A stretch of 64,000 bases of DNA from Ancylobacter defluvii (GTDB lineage Bacteria > Pseudomonadota > Alphaproteobacteria > Rhizobiales > Xanthobacteraceae). The translations under genes were made by a program, and so were the position numbers. Below the pieces are notes generated by a model. The model saw only the letters and a list, made by a program, of their open reading frames with translations, did no database searches and was not told the origin of the DNA. How positions within the stretch are numbered: the stretch's first letter is position 1; each line of letters begins with the position of its first letter. The stretch spans positions 197,031-261,030 of the forward strand of contig NZ_JAHBGD010000019.1 in the NCBI RefSeq assembly GCF_018390605.1, in the 5' to 3' direction. Below, piece after piece: positions 26,802 to 46,252 of the stretch.

Positions 26802-26846
26802 GCGGCCGCGATCCGGCGGCGGGGCATCCGCCGCCGGAAACCGCTC
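26800..26846. terminator. Bidirectional hairpin terminator between convergent genes
   Basis: A very strong hairpin: CCGGCGGCGG at 26813-26822 pairs perfectly with CCGCCGCCGG at 26828-26837, with an outer stem GAGCGG/CCGCTC that includes the stop codons of both flanking convergent genes. No long T-run follows on either side. Confidence 0.6.
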
Positions 26847-27888
26847 AGTTCTGGTCTTCCGGGATCACCTTGCCGTCGAGGGTCATCGGCTCGCCGTCGA
26901 GCGAGAGCGAATGGCCGCGCAGCGGGATGTCCATGTGGCAGGGCGTGTCGCGGGTGCCGCCTGCCTCGGTGTTCGGGCCGCTCGACCAAAGGAAATTGCC
27001 GTAGAACGAGCGCGCGTCCATGGAGAGCCCGGCCTCGCGGTCATAGAGGCCGAGCGTCGTCCAATGGGCCTTTTTGTGCAGCCCCCAGCCGACATGCGCC
27101 ATCGCATAGGCGTCGGGGTCGTTGAAGCTGTCCATGTAGCTGCGCAGGTATTCCGCCTCGAAGCCGCCCTCGATCTTGCGGATCCAGCCGCCCTCGATGG
27201 AAATGTGGATCGGCTCGCGGGCATAGCGCTTGAACGGCAGCAGTATGTCGCCGGTGTCGATGACGATCACCCCCTCGCAGGAGCCCTCGTCCGGCCAGGT
27301 GGCGACGAAGCAGCTCGGCCAGTGATCCCAGCCGCCCGGCTTGTCGACGAAGCCCTGCTGCTTCAGCACCGGATATTGCCCGATGGCGCAGCGGAAATCG
27401 GTGCCGGCCTTCGAGGTGACGGTGAGCGTCTTGGCCTTCGCCAGCCGGTTGGCGGCATTGGTCGCCCGGCGCGCATCGTCCAGCGTCGGCTTCATCCGCA
27501 GCATCACCTCCGGCGGCTCGCAGGCCAGCAGCATGCGGGCGCCGGTCTTCAGGATCTCCTCCTGCTCGGGCGAGAACAGCAGCATCATGGTGTCGATGAC
27601 GAGGTCCGAATGCTTCATCGCCTCCAGAGCCGGGCGATTGCCCTTCAGCGCCGTGTGGCCGACATAGCCCGACTTGTCGCGCGACAGCGCCACATCGCCA
27701 TTGAGTGGCGGCAGCTGGAGGATCGTCAGCACGCCGCCGAGCTGGCCGACCGCGGTGCGAGCGGTGGAGACGAGCTGCGGATTGCTGTCGTCGCTGACGA
27801 GCAGCGACACCTGCTCGCCGGGCGTGAGCTTGGAAAGCGTCAGCACGTCCTTCCAGGCTTCGATAAGCGCCAGGTCACTGATTGCCAT
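26845..27888 (-). CDS. NicX-family dioxygenase (2,5-dihydroxypyridine 5,6-dioxygenase-like)
   Basis: The 347-residue protein aligns along its full length with Pseudomonas putida NicX as I remember it, without gaps through most of the chain: DTMMLL-x-SPEQE, LAxEPPEV, SKAG, WDHWPS, GGFEAEYLR, YGNFL, GPNTE. The iron ligands I recall for NicX, His265, His318 and Asp320, fall at exactly the same residue numbers here (in MAHVGWGLH and CHMDIPL), so an Fe(II) extradiol-like dioxygenase is expected. NicX opens the ring of 2,5-dihydroxypyridine to N-formylmaleamate. Position 177 is Gln here whereas I recall Glu in NicX, so the ring substrate may differ. The gene heads a minus-strand group downstream of two amidases and the half flavin reductase. 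Confidence 0.88.
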   Translation of the reverse strand: MAISDLALIEAWKDVLTLSKLTPGEQVSLLVSDDSNPQLVSTARTAVGQLGGVLTILQLPPLNGDVALSRDKSGYVGHTALKGNRPALEAMKHSDLVIDTMMLLFSPEQEEILKTGARMLLACEPPEVMLRMKPTLDDARRATNAANRLAKAKTLTVTSKAGTDFRCAIGQYPVLKQQGFVDKPGGWDHWPSCFVATWPDEGSCEGVIVIDTGDILLPFKRYAREPIHISIEGGWIRKIEGGFEAEYLRSYMDSFNDPDAYAMAHVGWGLHKKAHWTTLGLYDREAGLSMDARSFYGNFLWSSGPNTEAGGTRDTPCHMDIPLRGHSLSLDGEPMTLDGKVIPEDQN

Positions 27889-27939
27889 GATTGCCTTCCC
27901 TTGTCGGGGATCCTGCAGAGTTTCGATGTCAGCACCGGC

Positions 27940-28203
27940 TCAGGCCAGCGAGCGATAGCCACGGTCGAAATGGATCAGCGGCGGCGCTGCCGGGCCGAGC
28001 CGCACCGCCCGCACGGTTCCGAAGAAAACCGTGTAGGCGTCGACGCTTTCGGCGAGCGTGCAGTCGATGCTGACCACCGCATCGCGAAGCGCCGGACGGC
28101 CCACGGCGTGGTTGAAGGCATCTGTAAGCTCGGGATCGGCAGCATACGACAAGGCCGGTGCCATGGCGCCCTGCCAATGGCCTTGTGCGGCATGGGTGGT
28201 CAT
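27940..28203 (-). pseudogene. Half-length flavin reductase (C-terminal part only)
   Basis: This 87-residue reading frame starts with an ATG that overlaps the amidase stop by four bases. Its second half (SIDCTLAESVDAYTVFFGTV, then PPLIHFDRGYRSLA) matches the end of HpaC-like flavin reductases, where the conserved pattern is a Cys strand, a 'G(D)H-lflG-V' strand and a final 'PLly-g-Y-L'. The N-terminal FMN-binding half (the usual about 80 residues with the AVTTxxxxGxxxG-type segment) is missing and the first 30 residues do not resemble it. It is either a deletion remnant of the reductase partner of the HpaB-type monooxygenase at 31496, or a shortened protein with a new role. The intact coupling to the amidase argues that it may still be translated. 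Confidence 0.6.
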
Positions 28204-29495
28204 GACCGCAGCGCCTTCAGCGCGTCCTCGACAAAGGCAGCGGCAGCGAGGGTCCGCGCATCGTCGCCGATGCGGCCGACCACCTGCACGCCGACCGGCA
28301 GACCGCCCGGCCCGACACCTGCCGGCACCGACAGCGCCGGGACATGCAGCAATGTCCACACCTTGTTGAACACCGGGTCGCCAGTGGCACCGAGCCCGGC
28401 CGGTGCCTCGCCCGGCGCGGCGGGGGTGATCAGCACGTCGCAGCCGTCGAGCAGTTCCTCGACGATGGCATCCCGGTGCTTCAGCACGGCGAGCGCGGCG
28501 TCGTATTGGTCGCGCGTCGCCTTCGCCAGCGTCTCGATGAAGCCGAGGGTGATCGGCGAGATGCGCTCGCCCAGCCCCCGGCGCTCATAGGCCAGCGTAT
28601 GCGGCGTCTCCCAGCCCATCACCGCATCGAACAACGCGAAAAAACCCTCGAAGCTGTCCGGCACCGGCAGTTCGCGTACCGTGCCGCCGGCCGCCTCGAT
28701 GGCCGTGGCGGTACGGTCCAGCGCGGCGCGGGTCGCCGGCTCGGACGAAGCCCAGCGGGAGGTGCGGAACAGCCCCACCCGGAGCGGACCGTTGATCGTG
28801 CCTTCCGCCACCGCCGGCCTTTCCGCTAGCGCCGCGGTGACGAAGGTGGCGTCGCGCACGTCACGGGTTATGACGCCGAGATGGTCGAGGCTGTCGGACA
28901 GCGGCTTGATGCCGGCGCGGTTGAGGGTGCCGAAGCTCGGCTTGTAGCCGACCACGCCGCAATAGCTCGCCGGCCGCAGGATCGAGCCGGCGGTCTGGGT
29001 GCCGAAGGCGACATGCACCATGCCGGCCGCCACGGCGGCGCAGGAGCCACTGGAGGATCCTCCCGGCGTATGGTCGGGGTTGTGCGGATTGCGGGTCTTG
29101 CCCGGGCTCGACATGGCGAACTCGGTCGATACGGTCTTGCCGAGCACCACGCCACCGAGCTGGCGGGTCAGCGCCACGATGGGCGCGTCCCAGGCCGGCT
29201 GGTATCCCTCGTAGACCGCCGAGCCGTAGCCGGTCGGCATGTCAGCGGTGTCGATCACGTCCTTGACGCCGAAGGTGACGCCGGCAAGCGGACCCGCCGG
29301 GCTGGCGAGCGCCTCGGCCAGCGCGCGGTCGCGGTCGAAATACGCGAAAGCCTGGACCGCCGGCTCGACGGCGGCGATGCGCTCGGCGAAGGCGGCGGCG
29401 ACCGCTTCCGCCGCAAGGGCATTGCCGGCGACCCGTGCGGCCGTCTCGCGCGCCGACAATTCGGTCAGGGAAGAAGGCATCGTCTCGCTCATCAT
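28200..29495 (-). CDS. Amidase signature family enzyme (1)
   Basis: A 431-residue amidase-signature hydrolase with the Ser-cisSer-Lys triad: Lys78 in GVKDVIDT, the Gly/Ser-rich loop GGSSSGS at 145-151, and the nucleophile Ser171 in TAGSILRPASYCG. Members hydrolyse carboxamides to acid and ammonia; substrate range is broad and not predictable. In a ring-cleavage cluster it could remove the amide left after opening of an N-heterocycle, as maleamate amidase (a different family) does in nicotinate degradation. Tandem ATG codons occur at 29495 and 29492, the second better spaced from GAGG. It follows the second amidase by five bases on the same strand and overlaps the flavin-reductase remnant. Confidence 0.9.
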   Translation of the reverse strand: MMSETMPSSLTELSARETAARVAGNALAAEAVAAAFAERIAAVEPAVQAFAYFDRDRALAEALASPAGPLAGVTFGVKDVIDTADMPTGYGSAVYEGYQPAWDAPIVALTRQLGGVVLGKTVSTEFAMSSPGKTRNPHNPDHTPGGSSSGSCAAVAAGMVHVAFGTQTAGSILRPASYCGVVGYKPSFGTLNRAGIKPLSDSLDHLGVITRDVRDATFVTAALAERPAVAEGTINGPLRVGLFRTSRWASSEPATRAALDRTATAIEAAGGTVRELPVPDSFEGFFALFDAVMGWETPHTLAYERRGLGERISPITLGFIETLAKATRDQYDAALAVLKHRDAIVEELLDGCDVLITPAAPGEAPAGLGATGDPVFNKVWTLLHVPALSVPAGVGPGGLPVGVQVVGRIGDDARTLAAAAFVEDALKALRS

Positions 29496-29500
29496 TGACC

Positions 29501-30979
29501 TCAGCGGCTGACCACGGACGGACGCCGGCCGAACCACGGCCGCGCCCGCTCCAGCTGACCGGCAAGCCGGAACAGCAATCCGTCCTTGCCGAACCCCGCG
29601 CCGAAATGCGCGCCGATCGGCAGGCCTGCGGGAGAACCGCCGCCGGACGACATGCCGAGCGGCACGCTCATGGCCGGGCAGCCGGAAGCGTTGAAGGCGC
29701 AGGTGAAGGGCGCATGCGTCCAGAATGCATCGTAGAAAGCGTCGAGGCTCTTGCCCGCCCCGGCGAGCTTGCCGAGCGGCGGCGGCAACTCGGCGGCGGT
29801 CGGCGAGAGCAGCACGTCGTAGCTCTGGAAGAAGCGGCCGAGCGAGCGGGCGGTCTGGTGCAGCATGTTCACCGCGCCGAGATAGGCAGCCGCCGGCAGG
29901 GTCCGCGCCTCGCGCACCCATTCGGCATTGACGGGCTCGATATGGCCGAGCGGATCGGCGAGGCCGAGCGCCCGGCCGCGCATTTCCACCGCCGGCGTGA
30001 TGTTGACGCCGACGACGATGCGCCAGGCCGCCTTGAGCGCATGGGCGTCATAGCCCGCTTCGCAGATCTCGACGTGATGGCCGAGTTCCGCGCAGAGACG
30101 CGCCGCCTCCTCCGCCACCCGGCGGCATTCAGGATCGACCGGGGTGCCGAGCGGCGAATCCGGCGCGAAGCCGATGCGCAGCGGCGGCGGATCGCGTTCG
30201 ACCTGCGAGAGATAGCTCTCGGCACCGACCGGCGACAGATAGGGGTCGCCAATATCCGGCCCGCCGCTGGCATCGAGCAGCGTGGCGTTGTCGCGCACGC
30301 TCCAGCTGGCGGCATGCGGGGTCGACATGCCGGCGATCGCCTCCACCACCACCGGACCGAGCGGATTGACCATGCGGCTCGGCTTGAAGCCGAACAGGCC
30401 GCAATGCGAGGCCGGCACGCGGGTCGAGCCGGCGCCATCGGAGGTGTTCGCCATCGGCACATAGCCGGCGGCGATGGCGGAGGTGGAGCCGCCCGAGGAG
30501 CCTCCGGGGCTCAGCTCCGGATTCCACGGGTTGCGCGTGGGACCGAAGGCGTCCGGCTCGGTAGTGAAGCTGAGCGCGAATTCCGGGGTGTTCGTCTTGG
30601 CGATGATGACGAGGCCGGCCGCCTTGTAGCGCGCCACCAGCGTCGAATCGCGGTTCGACACCGCGTCCTTGAACAGGTTCGAGCCGGTGGACAGGATCGT
30701 CCCCTCCATCTCGAAGCCGGTGTTCTTCAACAGGAACGGCACGCCGGTGAAGGGGCCTTTCGGCAATCCTTCCGCGACCGCCTGCCGCCCGCGCTCCTCG
30801 AAGCGATGCACCAGGGCATGCAGTCCCGGCTCATGCGCCGCGATGCGCGAGAGCGCGGCATCGAGCAGTTCGTCCGCCGTCACCTCGCCGGCCCGCACCA
30901 ATGCCGCAAGCCCGGTCGCGTCATAAGCCTCGTAATCGGCAAAGCCGGCGTGGCACGGCGTATCGGAGGCGGTGGTCAT
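29501..30979 (-). CDS. Amidase signature family enzyme (2)
   Basis: The 492-residue enzyme carries Lys85 in PFLLKNTG, the Ser/Gly-rich PGGSSGGS at 158-165 and the nucleophile Ser185 in DGAGSTRVPA, followed by GLFGFKPS, so the amidase triad is complete. It differs considerably from the amidase encoded next to it and has a longer C-terminal region, which suggests a different amide substrate and sequential action. The ATG at 30979 overlaps the stop of the SnoaL-like gene by four bases. Aryl-acylamidase, indoleacetamide hydrolase and similar activities occur in this family; none can be singled out. Confidence 0.9.
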   Translation of the reverse strand: MTTASDTPCHAGFADYEAYDATGLAALVRAGEVTADELLDAALSRIAAHEPGLHALVHRFEERGRQAVAEGLPKGPFTGVPFLLKNTGFEMEGTILSTGSNLFKDAVSNRDSTLVARYKAAGLVIIAKTNTPEFALSFTTEPDAFGPTRNPWNPELSPGGSSGGSTSAIAAGYVPMANTSDGAGSTRVPASHCGLFGFKPSRMVNPLGPVVVEAIAGMSTPHAASWSVRDNATLLDASGGPDIGDPYLSPVGAESYLSQVERDPPPLRIGFAPDSPLGTPVDPECRRVAEEAARLCAELGHHVEICEAGYDAHALKAAWRIVVGVNITPAVEMRGRALGLADPLGHIEPVNAEWVREARTLPAAAYLGAVNMLHQTARSLGRFFQSYDVLLSPTAAELPPPLGKLAGAGKSLDAFYDAFWTHAPFTCAFNASGCPAMSVPLGMSSGGGSPAGLPIGAHFGAGFGKDGLLFRLAGQLERARPWFGRRPSVVSR

Positions 30980-31413
30980 GCCGGCACCTTGTCGATCTGC
31001 CGCTGGAAGGCGGCCGGGTCCCAATAGTCGCGGGTGCCGAGGAGAAGGCCGTCGGCGATCTCAAAGACATGCGCGCCCTTGAGCTCGATGGAAAGCCCGC
31101 GGGTCGGCCGGCCCTTGATGTCGACGCCAAGCCGGCCGGTCAGCGTGTAGACGACGGCCACAGTCGAGCCGGCGTCGATCCGCTCGCGCACTTGCCAATG
31201 CGCTTCAGGGATGAAGCCGAAGAAGCGGTCGAGGCCCAGCTTCAGCGCCTCGCGTCCCTCGCGGCGGGATCGATTATGCGCTTCCTCATGCCAGCCATCC
31301 TCGGCGTAGAGCGCCGCGGCGGCCCCTGCGTCATGGCGATTATACGCGGCATAGAAAGCCTCGACCGGATCGGCCGGACTGCGGAGCGAAGGGTCGGCTG
31401 GGTGCTGGGCCAT
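30976..31413 (-). CDS. SnoaL-like / NTF2-like protein
   Basis: A 145-residue protein with the cone-shaped NTF2-like fold pattern: an N-terminal helix (VEAFYAAYNRHDAGAAAALYAEDG) that includes the invariant Asp/Trp region, then EAHNRSRREGREALKLGL and four C-terminal strands. Such proteins are small isomerases, hydrolases, or non-catalytic binding partners. The ATG at 31413 has GGAGG six bases upstream and is preferred over the in-frame codon at 31437. It lies between the HpaB-type monooxygenase and the amidases, coupled to the second amidase by a four-base overlap. Its role in the cluster is unknown. Confidence 0.82.
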   Translation of the reverse strand: MAQHPADPSLRSPADPVEAFYAAYNRHDAGAAAALYAEDGWHEEAHNRSRREGREALKLGLDRFFGFIPEAHWQVRERIDAGSTVAVVYTLTGRLGVDIKGRPTRGLSIELKGAHVFEIADGLLLGTRDYWDPAAFQRQIDKVPA

Positions 31414-31453
31414 ACCGGGCCTCCGGTCATACGTCACACGCGGAAGAAGTGCC

Positions 31454-31475
31454 GGACCGCCCCGGCGGGCGGTCC
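31454..31475 (-). terminator. Hairpin after the HpaB-type gene
   Basis: GGACCGCCC and GGGCGGTCC form a perfect nine-base stem with a four-base loop, 20 bases downstream of the monooxygenase stop on the minus strand. Only a few T residues follow. It may terminate part of the transcripts, giving more monooxygenase than downstream amidase message. Confidence 0.5.
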
Positions 31476-31495
31476 AGAAGGCCGTTCACAAAGGC

Positions 31496-32992
31496 TCAGG
31501 GCATGCCGGCGAGGGTCTTCACCTGCTCGATGAAGCGCTCGCGCTTTACTTCATTGTAGAGACGCTCGCGCAGGCGCGGTGCCGGGCTGGCATTGACGTT
31601 CTCGAACAAGGCGACCCGGCCCGCGAGGGAGGACGACGTCATGTCCCAGATGAAGTTCATCAGCAGTTCCTTCACCTCGGCGCTGACGCCCTTGCCCGGT
31701 AGCAGATCGTGCAGGTGATGGCCGATCTCCGGATTGTCGAAGGCGGCCTTGCCGAAGCGCATGACGAGACCCTGGCCGCACAGCTCCTGAAGAATGTGGA
31801 TGATGCGCGGATAGTGCTCGATGGAATAGAGACGACCGGCGGTCAGCATGCCGGCATCCGGCGCCATCACGTCGCCCTCGGTGGGCTTGGCCATCGCCTC
31901 GGCGGCGGTGACGAAGGCGCGCAGCGTCTGGGCGTACTGGATGATCTCGCCCAGCATGCCCTGCACGGCCGGGATGTTGGAGGTGCCGAGCACGTCCAGC
32001 ACCAGTTGCCCGGCGCCGACGAACAGCTCCGCCTTCACCGCGAGCCGGGTCAGCACGTGCCAGTGGGCGAATACGCAGACCGGTCCATAATAGGACATCG
32101 CGGTCGGGTCGCCGAGATTGAAGATGCGGTCGGTCGGCACGAAAACATTGTCGAAGATGATCAGCTGGTCGGCTTCCTCGCCGAGGCGGGCCACCGGGTG
32201 GTCGAAGGGATCGGCGCCGGGATGCGACACCATCTCACGCGAGATCAGCTTGATGCCTTCGGCATTGATCGGCACCGAGGCCCAGATGCAGGCTTCCGCC
32301 GGGGTCTCGCGGATGCCGCCCAGATTGGTGAAGAAGATCTCGTTGGCCTGCGCCGAGATCGAGCCCACCGTCTTGGCGCCGGAGACGCGGATGCCACCCT
32401 TCTCGACGCTCTTCACCTTGAGCAGCGAGGCTTCCGCGCCCTTCGGCGACGAGCGGTCGTTCTGCGGGCCGGTGAGGCTCTCCGAGGCGGTGAGGTTGTT
32501 GTCGCGACCATAGGCGACATAGGCCTCGATGTTCTCGGCGAAATCGGGCGAACACCCCTCGATCAGCGACTTCTTGGCCTTGAAGGTCGGCAGATAGGCG
32601 AGCAGGCCGACGGCGATGGCCGGGGCAAGATCCGGCGGGCGGCCGAAGGTGCCGGCGGTCTTCAGGCTGGTGTACTCGATCATCTTGCGACGATCGGCGA
32701 GATCTTCCTTGGTGCGCGGCACCTGCCAGGAGCGGCTGGCCACCGTGCCGCTCTCGTCGACATAGGTGGTGGCCTCAGCGAATTCCGGCTTGAACTGGTC
32801 GTCGAACATCGAGGCGATGAGATCGACACCAGCCGACAGCGCCGGGTCGTCGAACACCTTGGCAATGCGCTTGCCGCCGACCCACAGCGCGCGGCCGTCG
32901 TCGAGCGAGGCCTTGAACTCCTCACCGGTCTTGAGCTTGTGGCCCGCCGGAAGCTCTCCCTGGAGTGCCTGCTTCGCCGTCTGCGCGTTCAT
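31496..32992 (-). CDS. HpaB-family FADH2-dependent monooxygenase
   Basis: The 498-residue protein belongs to the 4-hydroxyphenylacetate 3-monooxygenase large-component family: an N-terminal helical domain with RSWQVPRTKEDLADRR, a middle beta domain (GAKTVGSISAQANEIFFTN, CIWASVPINAEGIKLISRE) and a C-terminal four-helix bundle with HILQELCGQGLVMRF. Such enzymes hydroxylate aromatic rings with reduced FAD delivered by a separate reductase. The only reductase-like gene nearby is the half-length remnant at 27940-28203. Next to a NicX-type ring-cleavage enzyme, hydroxylation of a hydroxypyridine-type ring is the likely job, but phenolic substrates are not excluded. The ATG at 32992 has GGAG upstream; the frame is open to 33031. 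Confidence 0.88.
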   Translation of the reverse strand: MNAQTAKQALQGELPAGHKLKTGEEFKASLDDGRALWVGGKRIAKVFDDPALSAGVDLIASMFDDQFKPEFAEATTYVDESGTVASRSWQVPRTKEDLADRRKMIEYTSLKTAGTFGRPPDLAPAIAVGLLAYLPTFKAKKSLIEGCSPDFAENIEAYVAYGRDNNLTASESLTGPQNDRSSPKGAEASLLKVKSVEKGGIRVSGAKTVGSISAQANEIFFTNLGGIRETPAEACIWASVPINAEGIKLISREMVSHPGADPFDHPVARLGEEADQLIIFDNVFVPTDRIFNLGDPTAMSYYGPVCVFAHWHVLTRLAVKAELFVGAGQLVLDVLGTSNIPAVQGMLGEIIQYAQTLRAFVTAAEAMAKPTEGDVMAPDAGMLTAGRLYSIEHYPRIIHILQELCGQGLVMRFGKAAFDNPEIGHHLHDLLPGKGVSAEVKELLMNFIWDMTSSSLAGRVALFENVNASPAPRLRERLYNEVKRERFIEQVKTLAGMP

Positions 32993-33476
32993 CGTCCGCT
33001 CTCCTCTGAAGAACCCGCTTCCCGGACGCATTCTTCAGCATCCTGGCCGCGCCTATTGGCGAGGCGGCATGCCACGGACAAACCGCTTGCATGGGCTCCA
33101 CTGCCGGGCTCGGGCTGACCTGATCCAACCATTGAATGACAGAAATGGTCAAGCCCCTTCGAAGCAGCACTTCACTGCATAAAATTTGATCATTTATATC
33201 AAGTATGAAACAATATTACACATTACGAGCATGCAAACGATGAAAATTGTGAATTTCCATCCTTGGGCAATGCCAATATTCTGCCTAGAAAATAATCGCC
33301 ATAAAACAATCCACCCATTTCAACCAATTCAAGCCGACCATATCCGGCACCGATTCGCTTGACCAAAATCCTTGGTTCTGGCTTTTTGGTTGAGTTGAAT
33401 GGACATTTCGGCGCGGCGCGCCATCGCGGGAGAAGTCGGCATGCCGAGCCCCGGACCAGGAGCACAACCCGACCGG
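32993..33476. promoter_or_regulatory. 484-base AT-rich intergenic region with dyad
   Basis: This region between two minus-strand genes is markedly AT-rich from about 33170 to 33400. It must contain the promoter of the monooxygenase operon. A dyad TTGAT-N7-ATCAA lies at 33186-33202. An 80-codon minus frame at 33223-33465 has no family signal and I do not call it. No RNA gene was recognised. Confidence 0.45.
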
Positions 33477-33926
33477 TCAGTCGCTCCCGCGCCGACGGCA
33501 GTCCAGCGGCTGGGCCACCCCTGTCGACAGGCAGATGAGGTCAAGGGCCGGCTCGGCGGATCCGGCGCGACGGACGAGGCCGATCTCGCTGCGTGTCGAG
33601 ACGTCGGCCCCGGCATAGCCGCACCACAGGCGCTGGACCGGCATGCGCTCCTGCTTGTCGTTGAGCAGGAACACCTCGCCGGTCGCGGATTTCGACCACA
33701 GCCCAGCCTCGACCCGGCCGCCCGGCTCCGCCACGCCGATTTCGGCCGAATACCAATGCGCGATGGCGGCGGAGCAGGAAATGGAACGGTCAGTACGGTT
33801 CGCGACCTGAAACGGCACCGCAACCAACCCCTCCACGCCCCGCTCGACGACCATCGCCTCCTCCGCGAACACCGGCACCGCGGAGAAAGCAACTAAAAAC
33901 CAATAAGAAATAAAATTCTTACCCAT
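33477..33926 (-). CDS. Small exported protein, unknown family
   Basis: A 149-residue protein with a clear signal peptide: Lys3, a hydrophobic core (residues 5-18) and a cleavage site after VFA at about residue 21. The mature part is beta-rich and contains four cysteines (51, 102, 132, 143), enough for two disulfides in the periplasm. I recognise no family. It is divergent from the BMP-type ABC importer genes, and the shared upstream stretch (33927-34021) is AT-rich. It could be a minor accessory of that importer or unrelated. A GAGG is about ten bases ahead of the start. Confidence 0.65.
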   Translation of the reverse strand: MGKNFISYWFLVAFSAVPVFAEEAMVVERGVEGLVAVPFQVANRTDRSISCSAAIAHWYSAEIGVAEPGGRVEAGLWSKSATGEVFLLNDKQERMPVQRLWCGYAGADVSTRSEIGLVRRAGSAEPALDLICLSTGVAQPLDCRRRGSD

Positions 33927-34021
33927 TTCTACAAAACCTCGACCTTCAGCTTTGTTCTGATAGTATAAATTGTCCGATCATGGAACATAAATTTCCATAC
34001 GGACTACAAAGAGGACCTTCC

Positions 34022-35047
34022 ATGAGAAAAAATATTCTCCAGAGCATGGCCCTTGCCCTGCTTCTTGGCACGACTTCCATGGCGCAGGCGGCGGAGATCA
34101 AGTCGATCGCCATCCTGACCCCGGAACCCGGCACCGATTATGGCTGGAACCAGCAGGGCATCGACGCCGCCAAGGCGGCCGGCAAGGCGGCCGGCGTCGA
34201 GGTGCTGGTCGCCGACAATCTCGGCTATGGCGACGTGCGCCCGACGCTGCGCGAGATGGCGCAGGACGGCGCCGGCCTGATCATCGCCCATGCCAGCGGC
34301 TACAACACCGCCGCGCCCGAGATCGGCGCCGAGATGAAGGTGCCGGTCGCCATCGTCGACCTGCCGGACGCCAAGAAGGCCGGCGCGGTGGCCGATTACA
34401 CCGCGAGCGGCCATGAGGGCGCCTATCTCGCCGGCCGCCTCGCCGCCAAGATGAGCAAGACCGGCACGCTCGGCATCGTGGTCTCGGGCGAGCCGCCGTC
34501 GTGGAATTCGCAGTCCGCCGCGTTCGCGGAAGGCGCGAAAGCCGAGAAGCCCGGGATCAATGTGCGCTATGCGGTGATCGGCCCGGCGGCCTATTCCGAC
34601 GCCGCCGGCGGCAAGCGCGTCACCGAGGCGCTGATCGCCGCCGGTGCCGACATCATCTTCGGCCAGGGCAACGGCTCCAGCTTCGGCATGCTGCAGGCGG
34701 TGGAAACCAACAAGGCCACCAATGGCGGCAAGGTCTATTTCATCGACGTGATCGGCGACAAGACCGCCATCGACAAGGGCAACCTGCTCTCCTCGGTGGT
34801 GTGGAACCTGGAGCCGGTCTATGCCGCGATGATCGCCGACATCAAGGCCGACAAATACGGCACCCGCAACTACGACATCAACCTCAAGGACGGCTCGGTG
34901 GAGCTGCTCAAGAGCAAGCATGTCCCCGACGATGTCTGGGCGCAGATCGAGGCGCTGAAGAAGGATATCATCGCCGGCAAGATCAAGGTGACGGCGAAGT
35001 ACGACGCCGACAGCGTGCACAAGCTGGTCACCCAGCTGCCGCAGTGA
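34022..35047 (+). CDS. BMP-family ABC importer, substrate-binding protein
   Basis: A 341-residue periplasmic binding protein of the basic membrane protein (BMP/Med) type. It has a signal peptide ending AQA at about residue 23, then the DYGWNQQG segment characteristic of the family, a hinge-spanning two-lobe layout, and a FGQGNGSS loop. BMP proteins usually bind nucleosides or other N-heterocyclic rings by stacking between aromatic residues. Downstream genes encode the ATPase and both permeases. Directly beyond them lie the vitamin B6 genes, so pyridoxine or pyridoxamine is a reasonable ligand; this is an inference from context. AGAGGA precedes the ATG at 34022. Confidence 0.9.
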   Translation: MRKNILQSMALALLLGTTSMAQAAEIKSIAILTPEPGTDYGWNQQGIDAAKAAGKAAGVEVLVADNLGYGDVRPTLREMAQDGAGLIIAHASGYNTAAPEIGAEMKVPVAIVDLPDAKKAGAVADYTASGHEGAYLAGRLAAKMSKTGTLGIVVSGEPPSWNSQSAAFAEGAKAEKPGINVRYAVIGPAAYSDAAGGKRVTEALIAAGADIIFGQGNGSSFGMLQAVETNKATNGGKVYFIDVIGDKTAIDKGNLLSSVVWNLEPVYAAMIADIKADKYGTRNYDINLKDGSVELLKSKHVPDDVWAQIEALKKDIIAGKIKVTAKYDADSVHKLVTQLPQ

Positions 35048-35061
35048 CGCGGAACCGCCGC

Positions 35062-35093
35062 GAGAGTGCCGGCCTGATCGGGTCGGCACTCTC
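35062..35093 (+). terminator. Intra-operon hairpin after binding-protein gene
   Basis: GAGAGTGCCG at 35062-35071 pairs perfectly with CGGCACTCTC at 35084-35093. It lies 15 bases after the binding-protein stop, within a 215-base gap before the ATPase gene. Such hairpins often cause partial termination or protect the upstream message, so that binding protein is made in excess over the membrane components. Confidence 0.55.
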
Positions 35094-35262
35094 CGGTGGA
35101 ACGTCCTCTCGCGCACCCCTCCTTTCGGGAGACGGGTCTTGATGCCGCCCCTCTCTCGCCGGCGAATCCGGCCGTCGCCGCATTCGCCCGTCGGCACGGC
35201 CGGGATCGGATGACGCCGATTTTGGTGGGAGAGGTCGGGATGAGGGGAAACCGGAACGGACC

Positions 35263-36831
35263 ATGACCCAGATTCACACATCGTCCCCGCCGCAGGCCGA
35301 GCCACGGCCGATCGTCTCGCTCGATCACGTCACCAAGCGCTTTCCCGGCGTGGTGGCGAACGAACGCGTGTCCTTCGACCTCTGGCCCGGCGAAGTGCAT
35401 GTGCTGCTCGGCGAGAACGGCGCCGGCAAGTCGACGCTGGTCGGCATGCTCTCCGGCCTGCAACTGCCCGATGAAGGCGGCGTGCTGATCGACGGGCGGG
35501 AAGTGCGCATCGCCTCGCCGGCGCGCGCGCTGGAGCTCGGCATCGGCACGGTGTTCCAGCATTCGATGCTGGTTCCCTCGCTCAGCGTCGTCGACAACAT
35601 GGCGCTCGGCGGCAAGTGGTGGTCGCGGCCGGACCGCGACGGTGTCGCCCGCAGGATGGCGGCGGTCTGCGCCGATATCGGCGTCACCATCGATCCGCAT
35701 GCCAAGGTCGGCTCGCTCTCGCTTGGCGAACAGCAGCAGGTGGAGATCGTGCGGGCACTGATGCGCGGCAGCCGGGTACTGATCCTCGACGAGGCCACCG
35801 CCATGCTGACGCCCAAGGGGGCAGAAGACCTCGGCGCGCTGATGGGCCGGCTGACCAAGCTCGGCATCGCCGTGGTTTTCATCACACACAAGCTCAACGA
35901 GGCGCTCGCCTTCGGCCACCGCATCACGGTGCTGCGCCTCGGCCGCAAGGTCGGCGAGATCGCGCCGGAGCGGCTCGCCGCGCTCGGCCCCGCCGCTGCG
36001 ACCGCCGAAATCGTGCGCCTGATGTTCGGCGCCGGCGTCGCCACGGACGAGACGGCGCCTGCCCCGCGGCGCGGGCGGCGCGCGGGCGCTCCCTTGCTGG
36101 AGATCGAGGCGCTGGCCGTCGACGATCCGTCGGTGCCGGTCGCCGGCATCAACCTCTCGGTCTCCCCGGGCGAGATCGTCGGCCTCGCCGGCATCGACGG
36201 CAACGGCCAGAAGCAGTTCGCCGAAGCGCTGGCCGGCCAGAGGCGCCTCGCCGCCGGCCACATCCGCCTCGGCGGCGAGGCGATCGAACGCCTCGATGTC
36301 GGCGGGCGCCGGCAGCGCGGCCTGCGCTATGTCACCGACGACCGGCTCGGCGAGGGCACGGTCGGCAGCTTTCCCATCTCGCTCAACCTATTGCTCAAGC
36401 AGGTCGGCGAGGCACCGTTCTGGCGCCACGGCCTCGAGCAATCCGACGCCATCGCCACGCATGCAAGGCGGCTGGTCAGTGAATTCGACGTGCGCACGCC
36501 CGGCATCGAGACCGCCATCGGCAAGCTCTCCGGCGGCAACATCCAGAAGGCACTGCTGGCGCGCGAACTCTCCGGCGCGGCACGGGCGGTGATCTTCGCC
36601 AAACCGACCTATGGCCTCGACGTGCAGAACATCCGCGCCACCCGCCAGCGCATCCGCGAGGCCGCCGAGCAGGGCCTGGCGGTGATCCTGATCTCCACCG
36701 ATCTCGAAGAGGTGCTCGAGCTGTCCGACCGCGTCGCGGTCATGTCGCGCGGGCACATCGTCGGCGTGGTCGACAACGATGCCGATGCCCGCAGCCGGGT
36801 CGGCGAACTGATGAGCGGCGTGACGGCATGA
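35263..36831 (+). CDS. BMP-type ABC importer, double ATP-binding protein
   Basis: A 522-residue protein with two ABC modules, as in NupO/YufO-type nucleoside importers. The first has Walker A GENGAGKST, signature LSLGEQQQ and Walker B VLILDEATA. The second has a degenerate Walker A (GIDGNGQKQF), signature LSGGNIQKALLARELS and a Walker B-like VIFAKPTYGLD in which the usual Asp-Glu pair is not present. One functional and one degenerate site is normal for this family. The stop overlaps the first permease start by four bases. Confidence 0.93.
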   Translation: MTQIHTSSPPQAEPRPIVSLDHVTKRFPGVVANERVSFDLWPGEVHVLLGENGAGKSTLVGMLSGLQLPDEGGVLIDGREVRIASPARALELGIGTVFQHSMLVPSLSVVDNMALGGKWWSRPDRDGVARRMAAVCADIGVTIDPHAKVGSLSLGEQQQVEIVRALMRGSRVLILDEATAMLTPKGAEDLGALMGRLTKLGIAVVFITHKLNEALAFGHRITVLRLGRKVGEIAPERLAALGPAAATAEIVRLMFGAGVATDETAPAPRRGRRAGAPLLEIEALAVDDPSVPVAGINLSVSPGEIVGLAGIDGNGQKQFAEALAGQRRLAAGHIRLGGEAIERLDVGGRRQRGLRYVTDDRLGEGTVGSFPISLNLLLKQVGEAPFWRHGLEQSDAIATHARRLVSEFDVRTPGIETAIGKLSGGNIQKALLARELSGAARAVIFAKPTYGLDVQNIRATRQRIREAAEQGLAVILISTDLEEVLELSDRVAVMSRGHIVGVVDNDADARSRVGELMSGVTA

Positions 36832-37913
36832 GCGAAACCACCCAGATCGGCAGCGATGCCCTCCTCGCCCGGCGCAGCGGCGCCCGGCGCGAGCGCGTCC
36901 GCCTCGTCGCCATGGCGCTCGGCCCGGTGTTCGGCGCCATCGTGATGTCCGGCCTCGTGCTGCTCGCGCTCGGCGTCGATCCCATCGCCTATTACGGTTA
37001 CGTGGTCGATCGCGGGCTGATCAATCCCTATGGCCTGCAGGCGACGCTCACCCGCATGGGGCCGCTGCTGCTGATCGCCGCCGGGCTGATCGTCGCCTTC
37101 CGGGCCGGCATCTGGAATCTCGGCGGCGACGGCCAGTTCCTGCTCAGCGCGGTGGTCGTCGCTGCGCTCGGCCCGCTGATGGTGCCGTATTTCCCCGTCT
37201 GGATGGTGCTGCTCATCGGGCTTCTGGTCGGGGCGATGGTCGGGGCGGTGTGGTCGCTGCTGCCGGCGCTGCTGAAGGCCTATCAGGGCGTCAACGAGAT
37301 CATCACCACGCTGATGATGACCTTTCTCGGCGTGTCCTTCGCCAATGTGCTGGTGAAGCTGTTCTTCCGCGATCCGGCAACCACCGTGCCGCAGACGCGC
37401 ACCCTCGTCGTCGCCGACCGGCTGCCCCGCCTGTTCGACACCACGGTATCGAGCGGATTGCTCATCGGCCTCGTCGCCATCATGGCGGTGCATCTGCTGA
37501 TGACCCGCACCGCCTTCGGACTGAAGCTGCGCATCGTCGGCGCCAATCCGCGCGCGGCCATCCATGCCGGCCTCAACGTGCCGCTGCTCACCATGGCGAC
37601 CTTCGCCATCTCGGCGGCGCTGGCCGGGCTGGCGGGAGCGGTCGAGATCATGGGCGTGCAGGGCAATGTGCGCGCCGACTGGAACCCCGCCTACAGCCTC
37701 ACCGTGGTGCCGCTGGTGTTCCTGGCCCGGTTCAACGGCTTCGCCTCCATCGCCTTCGTGTTCCTGTTCTCGGTGCTCTCCATCGGCGGCGAGAGCGCGG
37801 CCCGGCGCACCGGCGTGCCGAATTTCTTCACGCTGGTGGTGGTGGCGATCCTGCTGATCATGCTGGGCATCACCGAATATCTCGACCAGCGCCGCCGCGC
37901 GGCCGGCAAGTAA
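36828..37913 (+). CDS. BMP-type ABC importer, permease 1
   Basis: A 361-residue membrane protein of the branched-chain amino acid/sugar/nucleoside permease superfamily. It has about eight to ten hydrophobic segments, the family segment IWNLGGDGQFLLSAV after the second span, NEIITTLMMTF, and GANPRAAIHAGLNVPLLTM in the cytoplasmic coupling loop. It pairs with the permease encoded ten bases downstream to form the heteromeric channel. The start overlaps the ATPase stop by four bases. Confidence 0.92.
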   Translation: MSETTQIGSDALLARRSGARRERVRLVAMALGPVFGAIVMSGLVLLALGVDPIAYYGYVVDRGLINPYGLQATLTRMGPLLLIAAGLIVAFRAGIWNLGGDGQFLLSAVVVAALGPLMVPYFPVWMVLLIGLLVGAMVGAVWSLLPALLKAYQGVNEIITTLMMTFLGVSFANVLVKLFFRDPATTVPQTRTLVVADRLPRLFDTTVSSGLLIGLVAIMAVHLLMTRTAFGLKLRIVGANPRAAIHAGLNVPLLTMATFAISAALAGLAGAVEIMGVQGNVRADWNPAYSLTVVPLVFLARFNGFASIAFVFLFSVLSIGGESAARRTGVPNFFTLVVVAILLIMLGITEYLDQRRRAAGK

Positions 37914-37923
37914 GGAGGCCACC

Positions 37924-38859
37924 ATGTCCGCTCTGTTCACGCAAGCCTTCCTCACCTCGCTGGTGCTCGGTGCGCTGACCGCCGGCATCCCGCTGATGCT
38001 CGCCGGCCTCGGCGAGCAGATCTCGGAGAAGGCCGGCGTGCTCAATATCGGCATCGAAGGCATGATGCTGTTCGGCGCCTATCTCGGCTTCCTCGTCGCC
38101 TACCACACCGGGTCGGTGTGGCTCGGCTTCCTCGGCGGCGGGGTGGGCGGCTTGATGGTGGCGGCGCCGATGGCGCTGTTCTGCATCCGCATGGGCCTGA
38201 GCCAGATCGTCATCGGCATCGCCCTGACGCTGGGCGCGGAAGGGCTCACCGCTCTGCTGCACCATTTCCAGTTCGCCCAGAGCTATCCACGCCTGCCGGC
38301 GGTGGAGACGCTCGCCATCCCCGGCCTGTCCTCGATCCCGGTGATCGGGCCGGCGCTGTTCGACCGACCGCCCATCGTCTATCTCGCGGTGCTGGCGGTG
38401 GCGGTGACGGCCTATGTGTTCCGCCGCACCCAGTTCGGCCTCGCCTTGCAGGCGGCCGGCGACAAGCCGGCGGCTTTGGATGCGGCTGGCGTCGACGTGG
38501 TGCGGGTGCGGACCGTGGCGGTCCTCACCACCGGCTTCCTCGCCGGAATCGGCGGCGCGTTCATCTCGCAGATCGGCGCCGGCATCTTCGTGCCGTTCAT
38601 GACCAACGGCGCCGGCTTCATCGGCATCGTGCTCGCCATGCAGGCGCGCGGGCGACCATTCTGGGTGCTGTGCGGCGCGCTGCTGTTCGGCGCCTGCCTG
38701 TCCGCCACCACCGCGCTGCAGGTTGCCGGGGTGAGCATCCCGACCGACATCATCCAGATGCTTCCCTTCGCGGCGGTGCTTACGGTGCTGGTGCTGTTCG
38801 GCCGCCGCGCCAGCCTGCCGCCGGCGCTCGGTACCCATTACGTGCGGGGCGCACGATGA
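37924..38859 (+). CDS. BMP-type ABC importer, permease 2
   Basis: The 311-residue second permease has around eight hydrophobic segments, the VLNIGIEGMMLFGA segment that is typical of the smaller subunit in nucleoside-type importers, QIVIGIALTLGAEGL, and a coupling loop GDKPAALDAAGVDVVRVR. It is the last gene of the importer operon; the convergent pyridoxamine-pyruvate aminotransferase gene ends 20 bases further on. A GGAGG lies directly ahead of the ATG. Confidence 0.92.
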   Translation: MSALFTQAFLTSLVLGALTAGIPLMLAGLGEQISEKAGVLNIGIEGMMLFGAYLGFLVAYHTGSVWLGFLGGGVGGLMVAAPMALFCIRMGLSQIVIGIALTLGAEGLTALLHHFQFAQSYPRLPAVETLAIPGLSSIPVIGPALFDRPPIVYLAVLAVAVTAYVFRRTQFGLALQAAGDKPAALDAAGVDVVRVRTVAVLTTGFLAGIGGAFISQIGAGIFVPFMTNGAGFIGIVLAMQARGRPFWVLCGALLFGACLSATTALQVAGVSIPTDIIQMLPFAAVLTVLVLFGRRASLPPALGTHYVRGAR

Positions 38860-38879
38860 CGGCGCCCCGCCCCCTTGCC

Positions 38880-40055
38880 TCAGCCTGCTTCGATGACGGC
38901 CAGCGCCGCGGCGACACCGGCGCCGATATCGACGCGATGGCCGAGAGCGGACAGCCCGCCGCCGAGCGCGGACAGCGCCACGATCGCGTGGAGCGGCTGG
39001 GCGGTCGGTCCCATATGGCCGATGCGGGTGAGCTTGCCGAGCGTCTCGCCGCGGCCGGAGGACAGCACCACGCCATAGCGCGCGCGGATCTCCGCCCGGA
39101 GTTGTGCCTCGTCGATCCCCTGCGGGGTGCGCACGGCGGTGCAGGTGGGCGAGGCGAATGCCTCCTCCGCCGGCCAGATGGCCAGCCCCATCGCCTTGAG
39201 CCCGGCGCGGCAGGCCGCAGCGGTGAGCGCGTGGCGCGCCCAGACCTTCGACGGCCCCTCAGCGAGATAAAGGTCGATGGCGGCCTCCAGGCCGTTGATC
39301 TCCGAAATCGAGGGCGTGAAGGGGAACGGCCGGTCGGCGCGCCAGGCTTCCTGCCAGTCGAGGATCGACAGGATCGAGGCGCGCGGCGCGGCCGGGTTGG
39401 CCTTCATCTTCGCCCAGGCGCGATTCGACACCCCGAGGATGGACAGGCCGGGCGGGCAGCCGAGGCACTTATTGGGGCCGGTGACGAGCAGATCGATGGC
39501 GGCCGATTCGGCATCGACCGGCATGCCGCCGAAGGACGACACCGCATCGACCAGGAACAGCGCCCCGTGCCGTTTCACCACCGCGCCGATCTCGGCGACC
39601 GGATTGACGGTGCCGGACGGCGTGTCGTGATGACAGGCCGCGACGACGGTGATGTCCGGCCGTTCGGCCAGCACGCGGGCGACCTCGGCGGGATCGATCA
39701 CCTGGTCATACGGCACCGCCAGCTCGACGATCTCGGCGCCCGAGCGTGCCGCCCAGCCCTCGAAGCCCTTGGAATAGACGCCGGAAACGAGATTGAGCAT
39801 CACGTCCCCAGGCCCCAGCAGCGAGGCGGCCGCCGCCTCCAGACCGAGCACCGGCTCGCCATGCAGGATGACCGGCATGGTCTCGGCCTTCACCACGGTC
39901 GCGAGTTTCTCGGCGACCCGCTGATAGGTCGCCTGGAAGACGGGATCGTAATCATAGAGCACCGTCGCGGCGAGGCTGCGCAGCACGGCGGGATAGGCGT
40001 CGACGGGACCGGTGGTCAGAGTGAAGACCGGCAGATCGGACGGGGCGTAACGCAT
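38880..40055 (-). CDS. ppaT: Pyridoxamine--pyruvate aminotransferase
   Basis: The 391-residue fold-type I PLP enzyme matches Mesorhizobium loti PPAT (EC 2.6.1.30) as I remember it: TAGPVNAYP-like opening, TVLYDYDP, ILHGEPVLGLEAAAASL, CHHDTPSGT, VDAVSSFGGM, VTGPNKCLG, SSGRGETLGKLTRIGHMGPTAQP. The catalytic Lys is residue 196 (197 in M. loti, one residue longer), and the substrate-determining Glu67, Arg335 and Arg344 correspond to Glu68, Arg336 and Arg345 there. The enzyme converts pyridoxamine and pyruvate to pyridoxal and alanine, the entry of pyridoxamine into B6 catabolism. It is divergent from the GntR gene at 40412 and convergent with the ABC importer. The ATG at 40055 matches the family start. 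Confidence 0.93.
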   Translation of the reverse strand: MRYAPSDLPVFTLTTGPVDAYPAVLRSLAATVLYDYDPVFQATYQRVAEKLATVVKAETMPVILHGEPVLGLEAAAASLLGPGDVMLNLVSGVYSKGFEGWAARSGAEIVELAVPYDQVIDPAEVARVLAERPDITVVAACHHDTPSGTVNPVAEIGAVVKRHGALFLVDAVSSFGGMPVDAESAAIDLLVTGPNKCLGCPPGLSILGVSNRAWAKMKANPAAPRASILSILDWQEAWRADRPFPFTPSISEINGLEAAIDLYLAEGPSKVWARHALTAAACRAGLKAMGLAIWPAEEAFASPTCTAVRTPQGIDEAQLRAEIRARYGVVLSSGRGETLGKLTRIGHMGPTAQPLHAIVALSALGGGLSALGHRVDIGAGVAAALAVIEAG

Positions 40056-40411
40056 GATTTCGCTCTGGATCGTTGGCGGAACCGCAGGAGATCCGGCCGA
40101 ACGGCAGATGCGAGATCCAACCAAAAATCGACCGAATTTGCCTTAATGGTTCAACATTGGCACCATGCGGTGTCCGGAGCAACCATGTTCGCAGGTGCAC
40201 GAGCACCATGCGGCATCGGCCATTTCTCCAAGGTTTATCGGTACTCCGAAGGGTATCGGGACATCCTCCATGGGTGTTCACCACGAGGGAAAGATACCGA
40301 AAGAGTTCCATTTGGCCTCGACCAGATGGCAACCAATATTGTAACTGGGCGACCCCGCTCCTACAATTGGCGGCGGAAGCTGCAACCGCCGCGCGATAAA
40401 AGGACCACTGC
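40056..40411. promoter_or_regulatory. 356-base divergent control region of the B6 genes
   Basis: This region separates the PPAT gene and the GntR gene and must contain both promoters. It includes the palindrome CAATATTG at 40335-40342 extended on one side to ATTGTA, a TATCGG element occurring twice around 40236-40260, and AAAGGA seven bases before the GTG at 40412. A 108-codon frame across it has no family signal and is not called. Confidence 0.45.
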
Positions 40412-41191
40412 GTGGCCGGCGTCCCAAACGCGAGAACGGATGTAACCTCGATGGACGCGATAGCGGACAAGACCGGGCGCAAGGTGCGCAGGACATCATC
40501 CGAGACCGAGAACCGTTCCGACGCTGACGGGCGCGAGCCAGGCGGAATCGGCGAGCTGGTGGAAGCGATTCGCGGCATCGTCGCCCGCACCGGCAGCATG
40601 CCGCCGGAACGGGCCGTCGCCGAGGAGCTGAATGTCAAGCGCCATACGCTGCGGCGGGCGCTCGGGGTGCTGCGCGCCCGCGGCGAGTTGGAACCCGCCC
40701 GCGCCGGCCGGCGCGCCTCCACGTCCTCCGGCCTCGACAGCAGCCGCAGCCTGATCAACTCCACCAATCCGCTGGAGGTGATGGAACTGCGCCTGATGCT
40801 GGAGCCAGCGCTGGCACGGCTCGCGGCGCTGCGGGCCAGCCCGGTGGAAATCGATCGCATCCTGCGCGCGGCGACGACGGATCCCGACGCCGATCCGATC
40901 GCCGCCGACATGGTGTTCCACAAGGCCATTGCGGCGGGGGCGCGCAATGCGCTCGCCTCCGAGCTCTATGTGCTGCTGCACCGGGTCGCCAGCGACGGGC
41001 GGCTGCGCTTCACCGACAGCGACGCCACCTTGCTGCCCGAGCGCGTGAAGCTGCGCGATGCCGAGCATCGGCAGATCGCCGAAGCGATCGCCGCCCGCGA
41101 TCCGGAAGCCGCCGAGCGCAACATGTGGCAACACCTCGCCACCCTGCAGCAGAAGATCACCGTCCGGCTCGCCCCCGGCGGGTCGCCCTAG
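40412..41191 (+). CDS. GntR family regulator, FCD subfamily, of B6 catabolism
   Basis: The 259-residue protein has about 45 charged N-terminal residues, then a winged helix at about 47-105 (GSMPPERAVAEELNVKRHTLRRALGVLRARGELEP in pieces) and an FCD domain at about 120-245 with a MELRLMLEPALARLAALR helix and HRQIAEAIAARDPEAAERNMWQHL, whose His residues would bind a metal. Its location between the aminotransferase and the oxidase of B6 catabolism suggests control of both by a pathway intermediate. GTG at 40412 has a good AAGGA seven bases upstream; an ATG at 40451 is the alternative. Confidence 0.88.
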   Translation: MAGVPNARTDVTSMDAIADKTGRKVRRTSSETENRSDADGREPGGIGELVEAIRGIVARTGSMPPERAVAEELNVKRHTLRRALGVLRARGELEPARAGRRASTSSGLDSSRSLINSTNPLEVMELRLMLEPALARLAALRASPVEIDRILRAATTDPDADPIAADMVFHKAIAAGARNALASELYVLLHRVASDGRLRFTDSDATLLPERVKLRDAEHRQIAEAIAARDPEAAERNMWQHLATLQQKITVRLAPGGSP

Positions 41192-41296
41192 GCGCCGCTT
41201 TCCGATCCCTGCCGACCCAACACCGGCCGACATCCGCGGGCGCATCGCCCGCGGTGCCGCTCTTCCTTTGCCCGATGCCTCGCGGAGACGCCTGCG

Positions 41297-42844
41297 ATGA
41301 AATCCTTCGATGTACTGATCATCGGCGCCGGCTCGGCCGGCTGCGTTCTAGCCGCCCGCCTGTCGGAGGATCCCGACCTCAAGGTGGGACTGGTAGAGGC
41401 CGGCGATCACCCGCGCGATCCCGACATCGCCATTCCGCAGAAGTGGCCGAGCCTGCAGGATCGCCCTTATGACTGGGCCTATCGCACAGTGCCGCAGCCG
41501 GGAACGGCGGGTCGCGTGCATCCCTGGCCGCGCGGGCGAATCGTCGGCGGATCCAGCTGCCTGCACGCCATGGCGCATGTGCGCGGCCACGCTGCCGATT
41601 TCGCGACCTGGGCCGAGGCAACCGGAGATACACGCTGGTCCTATGAGGGATTACTGCCAGGCTTCCGCCGCAGCGAGAGCTTCTCGAAAGGGGCCAGCGC
41701 CCTGCATGGCGACGACGGACCGCTGCCCGTCTATCTGCCGGACCAAGAGCTGAGCCCGGTGGTGTGCGCCTATATGGCGGCAGGCGTCGAACGCGGCGTG
41801 CCCGCCATCGGCGACCACAATTCCGGCCCGCTCAACGGCGTGGCGCCGAACTCGCTCACCATCCGCGACGGCAGACGGGTCAGCGCCGCCGACGCCTATC
41901 TGGTGCCGGCCCTCGCCCGTCCCAATCTGGACCTGCTCACCGGGGTGCGGGTGCACCGGCTGATCATCGTCGGCGACCGGGTGACCGGCGTGCTGGCGGA
42001 GATCGACGGGCAGCCGCAGACTCTCGCCGCCGAACGCATCTGCCTCTGTGCCGGCGCGGTGGCCTCGCCGCTGCTGCTGATGCGCTCGGGCATCGGACCG
42101 GCAGAGCAGCTCAAGGCTGCCGGCATCTCCTGCCTTGCCGACCGGGCCGAGGTCGGCGGCAATCTGCACGATCACCTGCTTACCGCCGGCAATGTCTATC
42201 GCGCCCGCCGCGAGGTGCCGCCGTCGCGGCTGCAACATTCCGAATCACTGATGTATCTCGATGTCGAGGATCCTACGCGGCCGGACGGCCCGCCGGACGT
42301 GGTGCTGGGCTGCGTGGCGGCACCTACTGTCTCGGAGTGCTTCGCACCGCCGCCTTATGGCTCGGCCTACACCATCCTGTCCGGCGTCACCCGCCCGACC
42401 AGCCGCGGCCGCCTCACCGTCACCGGGCCGGACCTCGATGCGCCGCCGCGCATCGACCCGGCCTATCTCTCGACCGAGCACGATCGCCGCCTCGCCCGGC
42501 GGGCGCTGGAACTCGCGCGCGAGATCGGCCACGGCGCCGCGCTCGATGAGTGGCGGGCGGAGGAAATTCTTCCCGGCATCGATGTTCGCGGCAACGCGGC
42601 AATCGACGACTTCCTCGCCCGCGCGGTCATCACCCACCACCATCCGGTCGGCACCTGCCGCATGGGGGCGGACGAGGACAGCGTACTCGATGCCGACCTG
42701 AAGCTGCGGGGTTTCGAGGGACTGCATGTCGTCGACGCCTCGGTGATCCCCACCATCACCTCTGGCCCGGTGCATGCGGCAATCCTCGCTATCGCCGAGA
42801 CCTTTGCCGTCGGCTTCGCGGAAACAAGCCGAAAGACAACATAG
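41297..42844 (+). CDS. pno: Pyridoxine 4-oxidase (GMC oxidoreductase)
   Basis: The 515-residue FAD enzyme has the dinucleotide motif GAGSAGCVLAARLSEDP near residue 10, the GMC signature GGSSCLHAM, a second signature around GAVASPLLLMRSGIG, and the catalytic ITHHHPVGTCRMG followed by VVDASVIPTITSGPVHAAILAIAE. It matches pyridoxine 4-oxidase (EC 1.1.3.12) of Microbacterium and M. loti as I recall them along the whole length, including YDWAYRTVPQPGTAGRVHPW and PPSRLQHSESLMYL. It oxidises pyridoxine to pyridoxal with O2, producing H2O2. The neighbouring PPAT makes pyridoxal from pyridoxamine, so both feed the same intermediate. The ATG at 41297 gives the typical N-terminus. Confidence 0.93.
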   Translation: MKSFDVLIIGAGSAGCVLAARLSEDPDLKVGLVEAGDHPRDPDIAIPQKWPSLQDRPYDWAYRTVPQPGTAGRVHPWPRGRIVGGSSCLHAMAHVRGHAADFATWAEATGDTRWSYEGLLPGFRRSESFSKGASALHGDDGPLPVYLPDQELSPVVCAYMAAGVERGVPAIGDHNSGPLNGVAPNSLTIRDGRRVSAADAYLVPALARPNLDLLTGVRVHRLIIVGDRVTGVLAEIDGQPQTLAAERICLCAGAVASPLLLMRSGIGPAEQLKAAGISCLADRAEVGGNLHDHLLTAGNVYRARREVPPSRLQHSESLMYLDVEDPTRPDGPPDVVLGCVAAPTVSECFAPPPYGSAYTILSGVTRPTSRGRLTVTGPDLDAPPRIDPAYLSTEHDRRLARRALELAREIGHGAALDEWRAEEILPGIDVRGNAAIDDFLARAVITHHHPVGTCRMGADEDSVLDADLKLRGFEGLHVVDASVIPTITSGPVHAAILAIAETFAVGFAETSRKTT

Positions 42845-44704: not shown

Positions 44705-44725
44705 GTCTCGCTCCGAAGACCCATG

Positions 44726-44739
44726 CATTTTTAAAAATG
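44726..44739. promoter_or_regulatory. 14-bp palindrome ahead of MocR gene
   Basis: CATTTTTAAAAATG is a perfect AT-rich palindrome 22 bases upstream of the MocR-type start, in otherwise GC-rich sequence. It is a candidate operator, probably autoregulatory, or overlaps the -10 region. No other copy was noticed in the window. Confidence 0.4.
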
Positions 44740-44847
44740 TCTGCGCGACATTACCGCCGAACCGGAGGCGGCGCCAGCCGGCCCCCCGGCGGTGGCCTCG
44801 TTCCTCGCGAAGCGGCCAACGACAAAAGGGGGAAGTGGCTTTACGGG

Positions 44848-46242: not shown

Positions 46243-46252
46243 GACCCATCCG

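Follow-up and report, generated by a model that had tools for sequence, protein, structure and literature searches.

Vitamin B6 degradation pathway I continues from pyridoxal via pyridoxolactone and MHPCO. On the uptake side, the transporters of B6 vitamers are unidentified in most bacteria, including E. coli and B. subtilis (PMC9997740), and bacterial B6 uptake has been ascribed to the PLP importer P5PA of Actinobacillus and to the ECF-type PdxU/PdxU2 (HmpT) (PMC8427247, PMC9997740). P5PA belongs to COG1840/PF13531 and PdxU to PF07155 (PMC9997740), whereas the importer analyzed here is of the BMP type. It is a member of the NCBIfam system ABC_BMP_B6 (NF047927-NF047930), a family whose own function is labeled putative and for which we found no underlying experiment in the open-access literature. 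The dioxygenase NicX, which belongs to the bacterial nicotinate (nic) pathway, holds its Fe(II) through the ligands H265, S302, H318 and D320 (PMC7910607). In the window, by which we mean the whole 64,000-nucleotide stretch of Ancylobacter defluvii DNA under study, we describe a locus that probably serves the uptake and catabolism of vitamin B6, with the ring opened by an adjoining module (Table 1). Our observations concern the genes present, the families of their products, the iron ligands, conservation and a mutually exclusive distribution, and from these we infer the transported substrate, the intermediates and the order of the reactions.

Table 1. Features of the putative B6 uptake and catabolism locus, in positions of the window
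Feature	Position	Strand	Basis or remark
NicX-like 2,5-dihydroxypyridine-type ring-cleaving Fe(II) dioxygenase	26845..27888	-	7cn3 NicX E=2.4e-120, 52% identity
Flavin reductase with internal in-frame deletion	27940..28203	-	87 aa versus ~172 aa in relatives
Amidase-signature enzyme 2	28200..29504	-	PF01425 E=6e-73; conserved in module
Amidase-signature enzyme 1	29501..31024	-	Generic amidase models, none above cut-off; conserved in module
SnoaL-like protein	30976..31437	-	PF12680; conserved in module
HpaB-type flavin-dependent monooxygenase	31496..33031, probable start ~32935	-	PF11794/PF03241
Secreted 149-aa all-beta protein, divergent from the binding-protein gene	33477..33926	-	No Pfam or NCBIfam match
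BMP/PnrA-family periplasmic binding protein (putative B6 importer)	34022..35047	+	NF047927 ABC_BMP_B6 485 bits, cut-off 400; PF02608
Double ABC ATPase	35263..36831	+	NF047930 765 bits, cut-off 670; two ABC_tran domains
Permease subunit 2	36828..37913	+	NF047929 541 bits, cut-off 400
Permease subunit 1	37924..38859	+	NF047928 533 bits, cut-off 465
Pyridoxamine-pyruvate aminotransferase (PPAT, EC 2.6.1.30)	38880..40052	-	NF046070 633 bits, cut-off 600; 2z9u E=7e-171
GntR/FCD regulator	40412..41191	+	PF07729 FCD, PF00392
Pyridoxine 4-oxidase, PNO (GMC flavoprotein)	41297..42844	+	Full-length best solved match 4ha6, E=6e-180

The importer consists of four adjoining plus-strand genes (34022-38859) that make up a complete BMP-type ABC set, and the binding protein, double ATPase and two permeases reported in the first-pass annotation all lie where they had been placed. 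All four proteins score above the cut-offs of the NCBIfam equivalog models named "putative B6 ABC transporter". Because these models already name a putative B6 transporter, the idea of a B6 importer is less new than that annotation had assumed, and the importer of this locus is a new member of a known but unproven kind. The binding-protein gene starts with the ATG at 34022, preceded by AGAGGA, and its product reaches 114 bits against PF02608 (gathering score 24.1).

Two B6 enzymes had been proposed beside the importer on the basis of sequence features, and both assignments held. The predicted PPAT, which had been recognized by its defining residues, passes the equivalog model, is 65% identical to the M. 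loti enzyme (2z9u) and keeps the active-site residues E68, Y95, D171, K197, R336 and R345, in what we take to be the M. loti numbering; its ORF is open to 40124. For the candidate pyridoxine 4-oxidase, the best solved match over the full length is pyridoxine 4-oxidase itself. The 20-base gap between the importer and PPAT was correct and runs from the end of the second permease gene to the end of the PPAT gene, with the genes convergent. Given that they lie tail to tail on opposite strands, the importer and PPAT do not form one operon or transcript, and a search for a palindrome shared by the importer, PPAT and HpaB promoters found none. The regulator gene placed between PPAT and the oxidase was confirmed there; it is found at this site in the Ancylobacter, Chthonobacter and Siculibacillus loci and in several of Rhizobium, and this position suggests that its product probably controls the B6 genes. 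Two adjacent MocR-type regulator genes follow at 43322-46260 on the minus strand, one nearest to EhuR and the other to PdxR, both below cut-off. We rejected this pair as the B6 regulator, since neither of the two passes a PdxR cut-off and the pair adjoins the importer only in the closest relative. Farther on, positions 47959-55759 (minus strand) hold a probable sugar/inositol-type cluster with a TIM-barrel isomerase, DUF993, an IolG-like dehydrogenase and an SsuA/TauA-type ABC importer.

The association of the B6-type BMP protein with PPAT extends well beyond this genome. We scored both proteins in 297 genomes of the host family, where the BMP match was bimodal (11 genomes, all from a single genus, at 483-490 bits, and the next best at 114 bits) and PPAT exceeded its cut-off in 11 genomes; 10 of these were shared with the BMP protein, each with PPAT about 5 kb from it (Fisher p ~1e-16). 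Among 385 genomes drawn across Alphaproteobacteria, the BMP protein was present in 10 and PPAT in 8, all 8 of which belonged to those 10 (Fisher p ~4e-15), and the two genes lay on one contig within 25 kb in 7 of the 8. We also collected 80 importer loci in named genomes by the BMP protein alone, a set rich in Mesorhizobium and hence not 80 independent cases, in which PPAT was found within 74 loci and 4 of the 6 exceptions were cut by contig ends. The ATPase and permease genes adjoin the binding-protein gene nearly everywhere that the contig permits. The position of PPAT relative to the importer varies by lineage (downstream, convergent or upstream), and its occurrence in several gene orders therefore argues for an association under selection rather than one frozen block. 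The Mesorhizobium/Jiella loci hold 4-pyridoxolactonase, pyridoxal 4-dehydrogenase and FHMPC dehydrogenase, which match the solved M. loti enzymes, and part of them also hold MHPCO (matching 3alj). Whether the importer stays beside B6 genes elsewhere or lies with purine genes had been posed as a check, and the conserved neighbors proved to be B6 genes, with no purine or nucleoside genes seen among them. A few genomes carry the importer without PPAT (G484, G652, G228/L008), which counts against a B6 function. In three loci (L084, L085, L086), a B6-type importer has neither PPAT nor catabolic genes nearby; these are possibly scavenging importers or decayed loci. One locus (L081), from a record titled Mycobacterium sp. 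KBS0706, is almost identical to that of Inquilinus and probably reflects a misnamed genome or a very recent transfer.

Read from this context and from the family models, the importer is very likely a B6 uptake system, as had been proposed: related importers sit with B6 genes, and NCBIfam names the family a putative B6 importer. Against this stands the fact that the solved relatives of the binding protein hold nucleosides, AtzT ligands or riboflavin, and none of them B6. In a Foldseek search, the AF model of the binding protein matched PnrA, AtzT, BmpD and RfuA, a PnrA-like fold; the predicted fold thus fits the BMP family, including the riboflavin-binding RfuA, yet gives nothing decisive on B6. 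The kinship in fold and sequence to the nucleoside-binding PnrA, BmpD and Lbp, and to AtzT, would suit an importer that takes up some other N-heterocycle, such as a purine or nucleoside, in line with most characterized BMP proteins, and that lies near B6 genes by accident. We consider this very improbable, given that it is contradicted by the co-occurrence and synteny with PPAT, by the dedicated NCBIfam B6 models and by the lack of purine genes among the conserved neighbors, and a purine importer was rejected on gene context. The transported compound could also be a derivative of B6 in place of the free vitamin; examples are a pyridoxine glycoside, a phosphorylated vitamer and 4-pyridoxic acid. 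Sugar adducts of B6 have been raised as possible transported forms (PMC9997740), and the importer is paired with either of two downstream pathways. However, the substrates of PPAT and PNO are free unphosphorylated vitamers, and neither a glycosidase nor a phosphatase is among the conserved neighbors, such that we regard a derivative as quite unlikely.

Upstream of the importer, a group of minus-strand genes (26845-33031) probably forms the matching catabolic module, which the first-pass annotation had missed. Its monooxygenase has both the HpaB_N and HpaB domains, with 4-nitrophenol and chlorophenol 4-monooxygenases as the nearest solved proteins, and its gene is conserved with the importer. 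The adjacent flavin reductase is intact in relatives (e.g., Ancylobacter tetraedralis) and internally deleted in this strain. With about half its length lost, its task must fall to a different reductase, or else the route does not work fully in this strain. The NicX-like protein has no match in Pfam or NCBIfam but keeps all four iron ligands. Of the substrate contacts of NicX, H189 is kept, and the other two are changed (H105F, E177Q). We dropped H105F as a mark of the B6 copies, since F105 also occurs in other NicX-like paralogs and is thus common to both groups, and only E177Q was retained as a pointer: it is present in all 25 of the B6-locus copies checked, whereas E177 is kept in 7 of 10 other paralogs. 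In one or the other of two gene orders, the module accompanies both importer and PPAT in Ancylobacter, Chthonobacter, Siculibacillus, Roseibium, Rhizobium, Neorhizobium and Celeribacter. Next to it, at 24904-26801 on the plus strand, lie genes for a PcaD-like hydrolase, a GntR/FCD regulator and a PcaC-like decarboxylase; a PcaC-like gene is also found near HpaB in Paracoccaceae/Brucella-type loci.

We rejected pathway I for this genome, given that pyridoxal 4-dehydrogenase, 4-pyridoxolactonase, FHMPC dehydrogenase and MHPCO are absent from it at the cut-offs used; the best MHPCO match is only 35% identical. When 30 importer genomes were searched for pathway-I enzymes and the NicX relative, a NicX-like copy (at least 63% identity) was present in 18, the window's own included. 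Pyridoxal dehydrogenase, pyridoxolactonase and FHMPC dehydrogenase occurred together in 11 of the 30, none of which has a NicX relative of this clade, and the 18 NicX-like genomes lack these three markers except for one lactonase match (G308). One importer genome (L008/G325) has neither set, and MHPCO is confined to 4 of the 30. A Fisher test of this split is descriptive only, because the genomes are related. The importer phylogeny divides into the same two groups (support 98/90), and the switch may therefore be a single old event, the genomes not being independent. A gentisate-dioxygenase-like cupin (e.g., L044:2267-3418) is encoded in many other pathway-I loci, namely importer loci of Mesorhizobium that in many cases lack MHPCO, and is possibly a third ring-opening variant for B6.

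This distribution bears on whether the module acts on B6 at all. The importer could carry B6 while PNO and PPAT serve cofactor salvage, forming pyridoxal for phosphorylation, and the HpaB/NicX/amidase block could degrade a different pyridine, for instance nicotinate or a hydroxypyridine. NicX is the dioxygenase of the nicotinate pathway and has been reported active only on 2,5-dihydroxypyridine (PMC7910607), which counts against cleavage of a B6 ring; moreover, this genome yielded no aldehyde-oxidizing step, and its flavin reductase is damaged. However, across Hyphomicrobiales and Rhodobacterales the block stays linked to the importer and PPAT, with two gene orders, and it replaces the pathway-I set almost exactly. 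In addition, some of these genomes hold separate NicX copies (43-46% identical) at other sites, which is what a distinct pyridine pathway would lead one to expect. We therefore consider a split between salvage and unrelated pyridine degradation unlikely and return to the reading in which the module opens the B6 ring.

In the proposed route, the BMP-type ABC importer would move free B6 vitamers (one or more of pyridoxine, pyridoxamine and pyridoxal) through the inner membrane with high affinity. Pyridoxine 4-oxidase would convert pyridoxine to pyridoxal, and PPAT would convert pyridoxamine, with pyruvate, to the same product. The aldehyde would be oxidized first. No enzyme that would convert pyridoxal into the HpaB substrate was identified here; in Paracoccaceae/Brucella-type loci, a divergent SDR and a divergent lactonase beside PPAT may carry out this conversion. 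The HpaB-type enzyme, with FADH2, would then hydroxylate C6, the position para to the hydroxyl group of the ring, which is plausible because its solved relatives include the 4-nitrophenol and chlorophenol 4-monooxygenases. Hydroxylation of a B6-derived 3-hydroxy-2-methylpyridine at C6 would give the 2,5-dihydroxypyridine pattern that NicX cleaves. The NicX-like enzyme could split the bond that joins the hydroxyl-bearing and methyl-bearing ring carbons, yielding a product of the N-acetyl-maleamate type, N-acetyl rather than N-formyl because the adjacent ring carbon bears the methyl group of B6. Such a product would explain the presence of two amidases, which would release acetate and ammonia.

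The 149-aa protein may add a further component to uptake. Its gene (33477-33926, minus strand) lies inside the range covered by the first-pass annotation, yet was left undescribed there. In 79 of the 80 importer loci it is the divergent neighbor of the binding-protein gene, loci with either catabolic module being among them, and the two orphan importers of the class-wide sample lack it. The protein has four invariant Cys and is confidently predicted to be a small beta-rich domain. A fold search suggested kinship to the VHL beta-domain, which we do not believe given the weak match and low TM-score. We would guess that the protein is an accessory in periplasmic B6 capture.

Collectively, our findings favor, somewhat beyond an even chance, an undescribed B6 degradation pathway shared by Ancylobacter, Rhizobium/Neorhizobium, Brucella relatives and Rhodobacterales. 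In this pathway, ring opening would be the work of an HpaB-type hydroxylase together with a NicX-type dioxygenase, an amidase would free acetate, and a dedicated BMP-type importer, aided by a secreted protein from a new family, would supply the B6. We did not find an HpaB/NicX route for B6 in the open-access literature. If the pathway exists, the module would provide B6 breakdown with a second genetic route and would give a function to a conserved gene set now annotated with generic names.

Compared with known systems, the locus shares the importer, PPAT and PNO with pathway I of Mesorhizobium loti but has HpaB, NicX-like and amidase genes in place of the tested later enzymes. Its binding protein has the same fold as those of the RfuABCD riboflavin and PnrA nucleoside importers, and RfuA (4iil) is a precedent for a BMP protein that holds a vitamin; however, the window's protein is only ~18-25% identical to these, and its gene context is different. 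With the nic pathway, the module shares a NicX dioxygenase in kind, 52% identical and with the iron ligands kept, but it differs in having an HpaB-type hydroxylase rather than NicC, in its amidases and in E177Q at a substrate-contact position.
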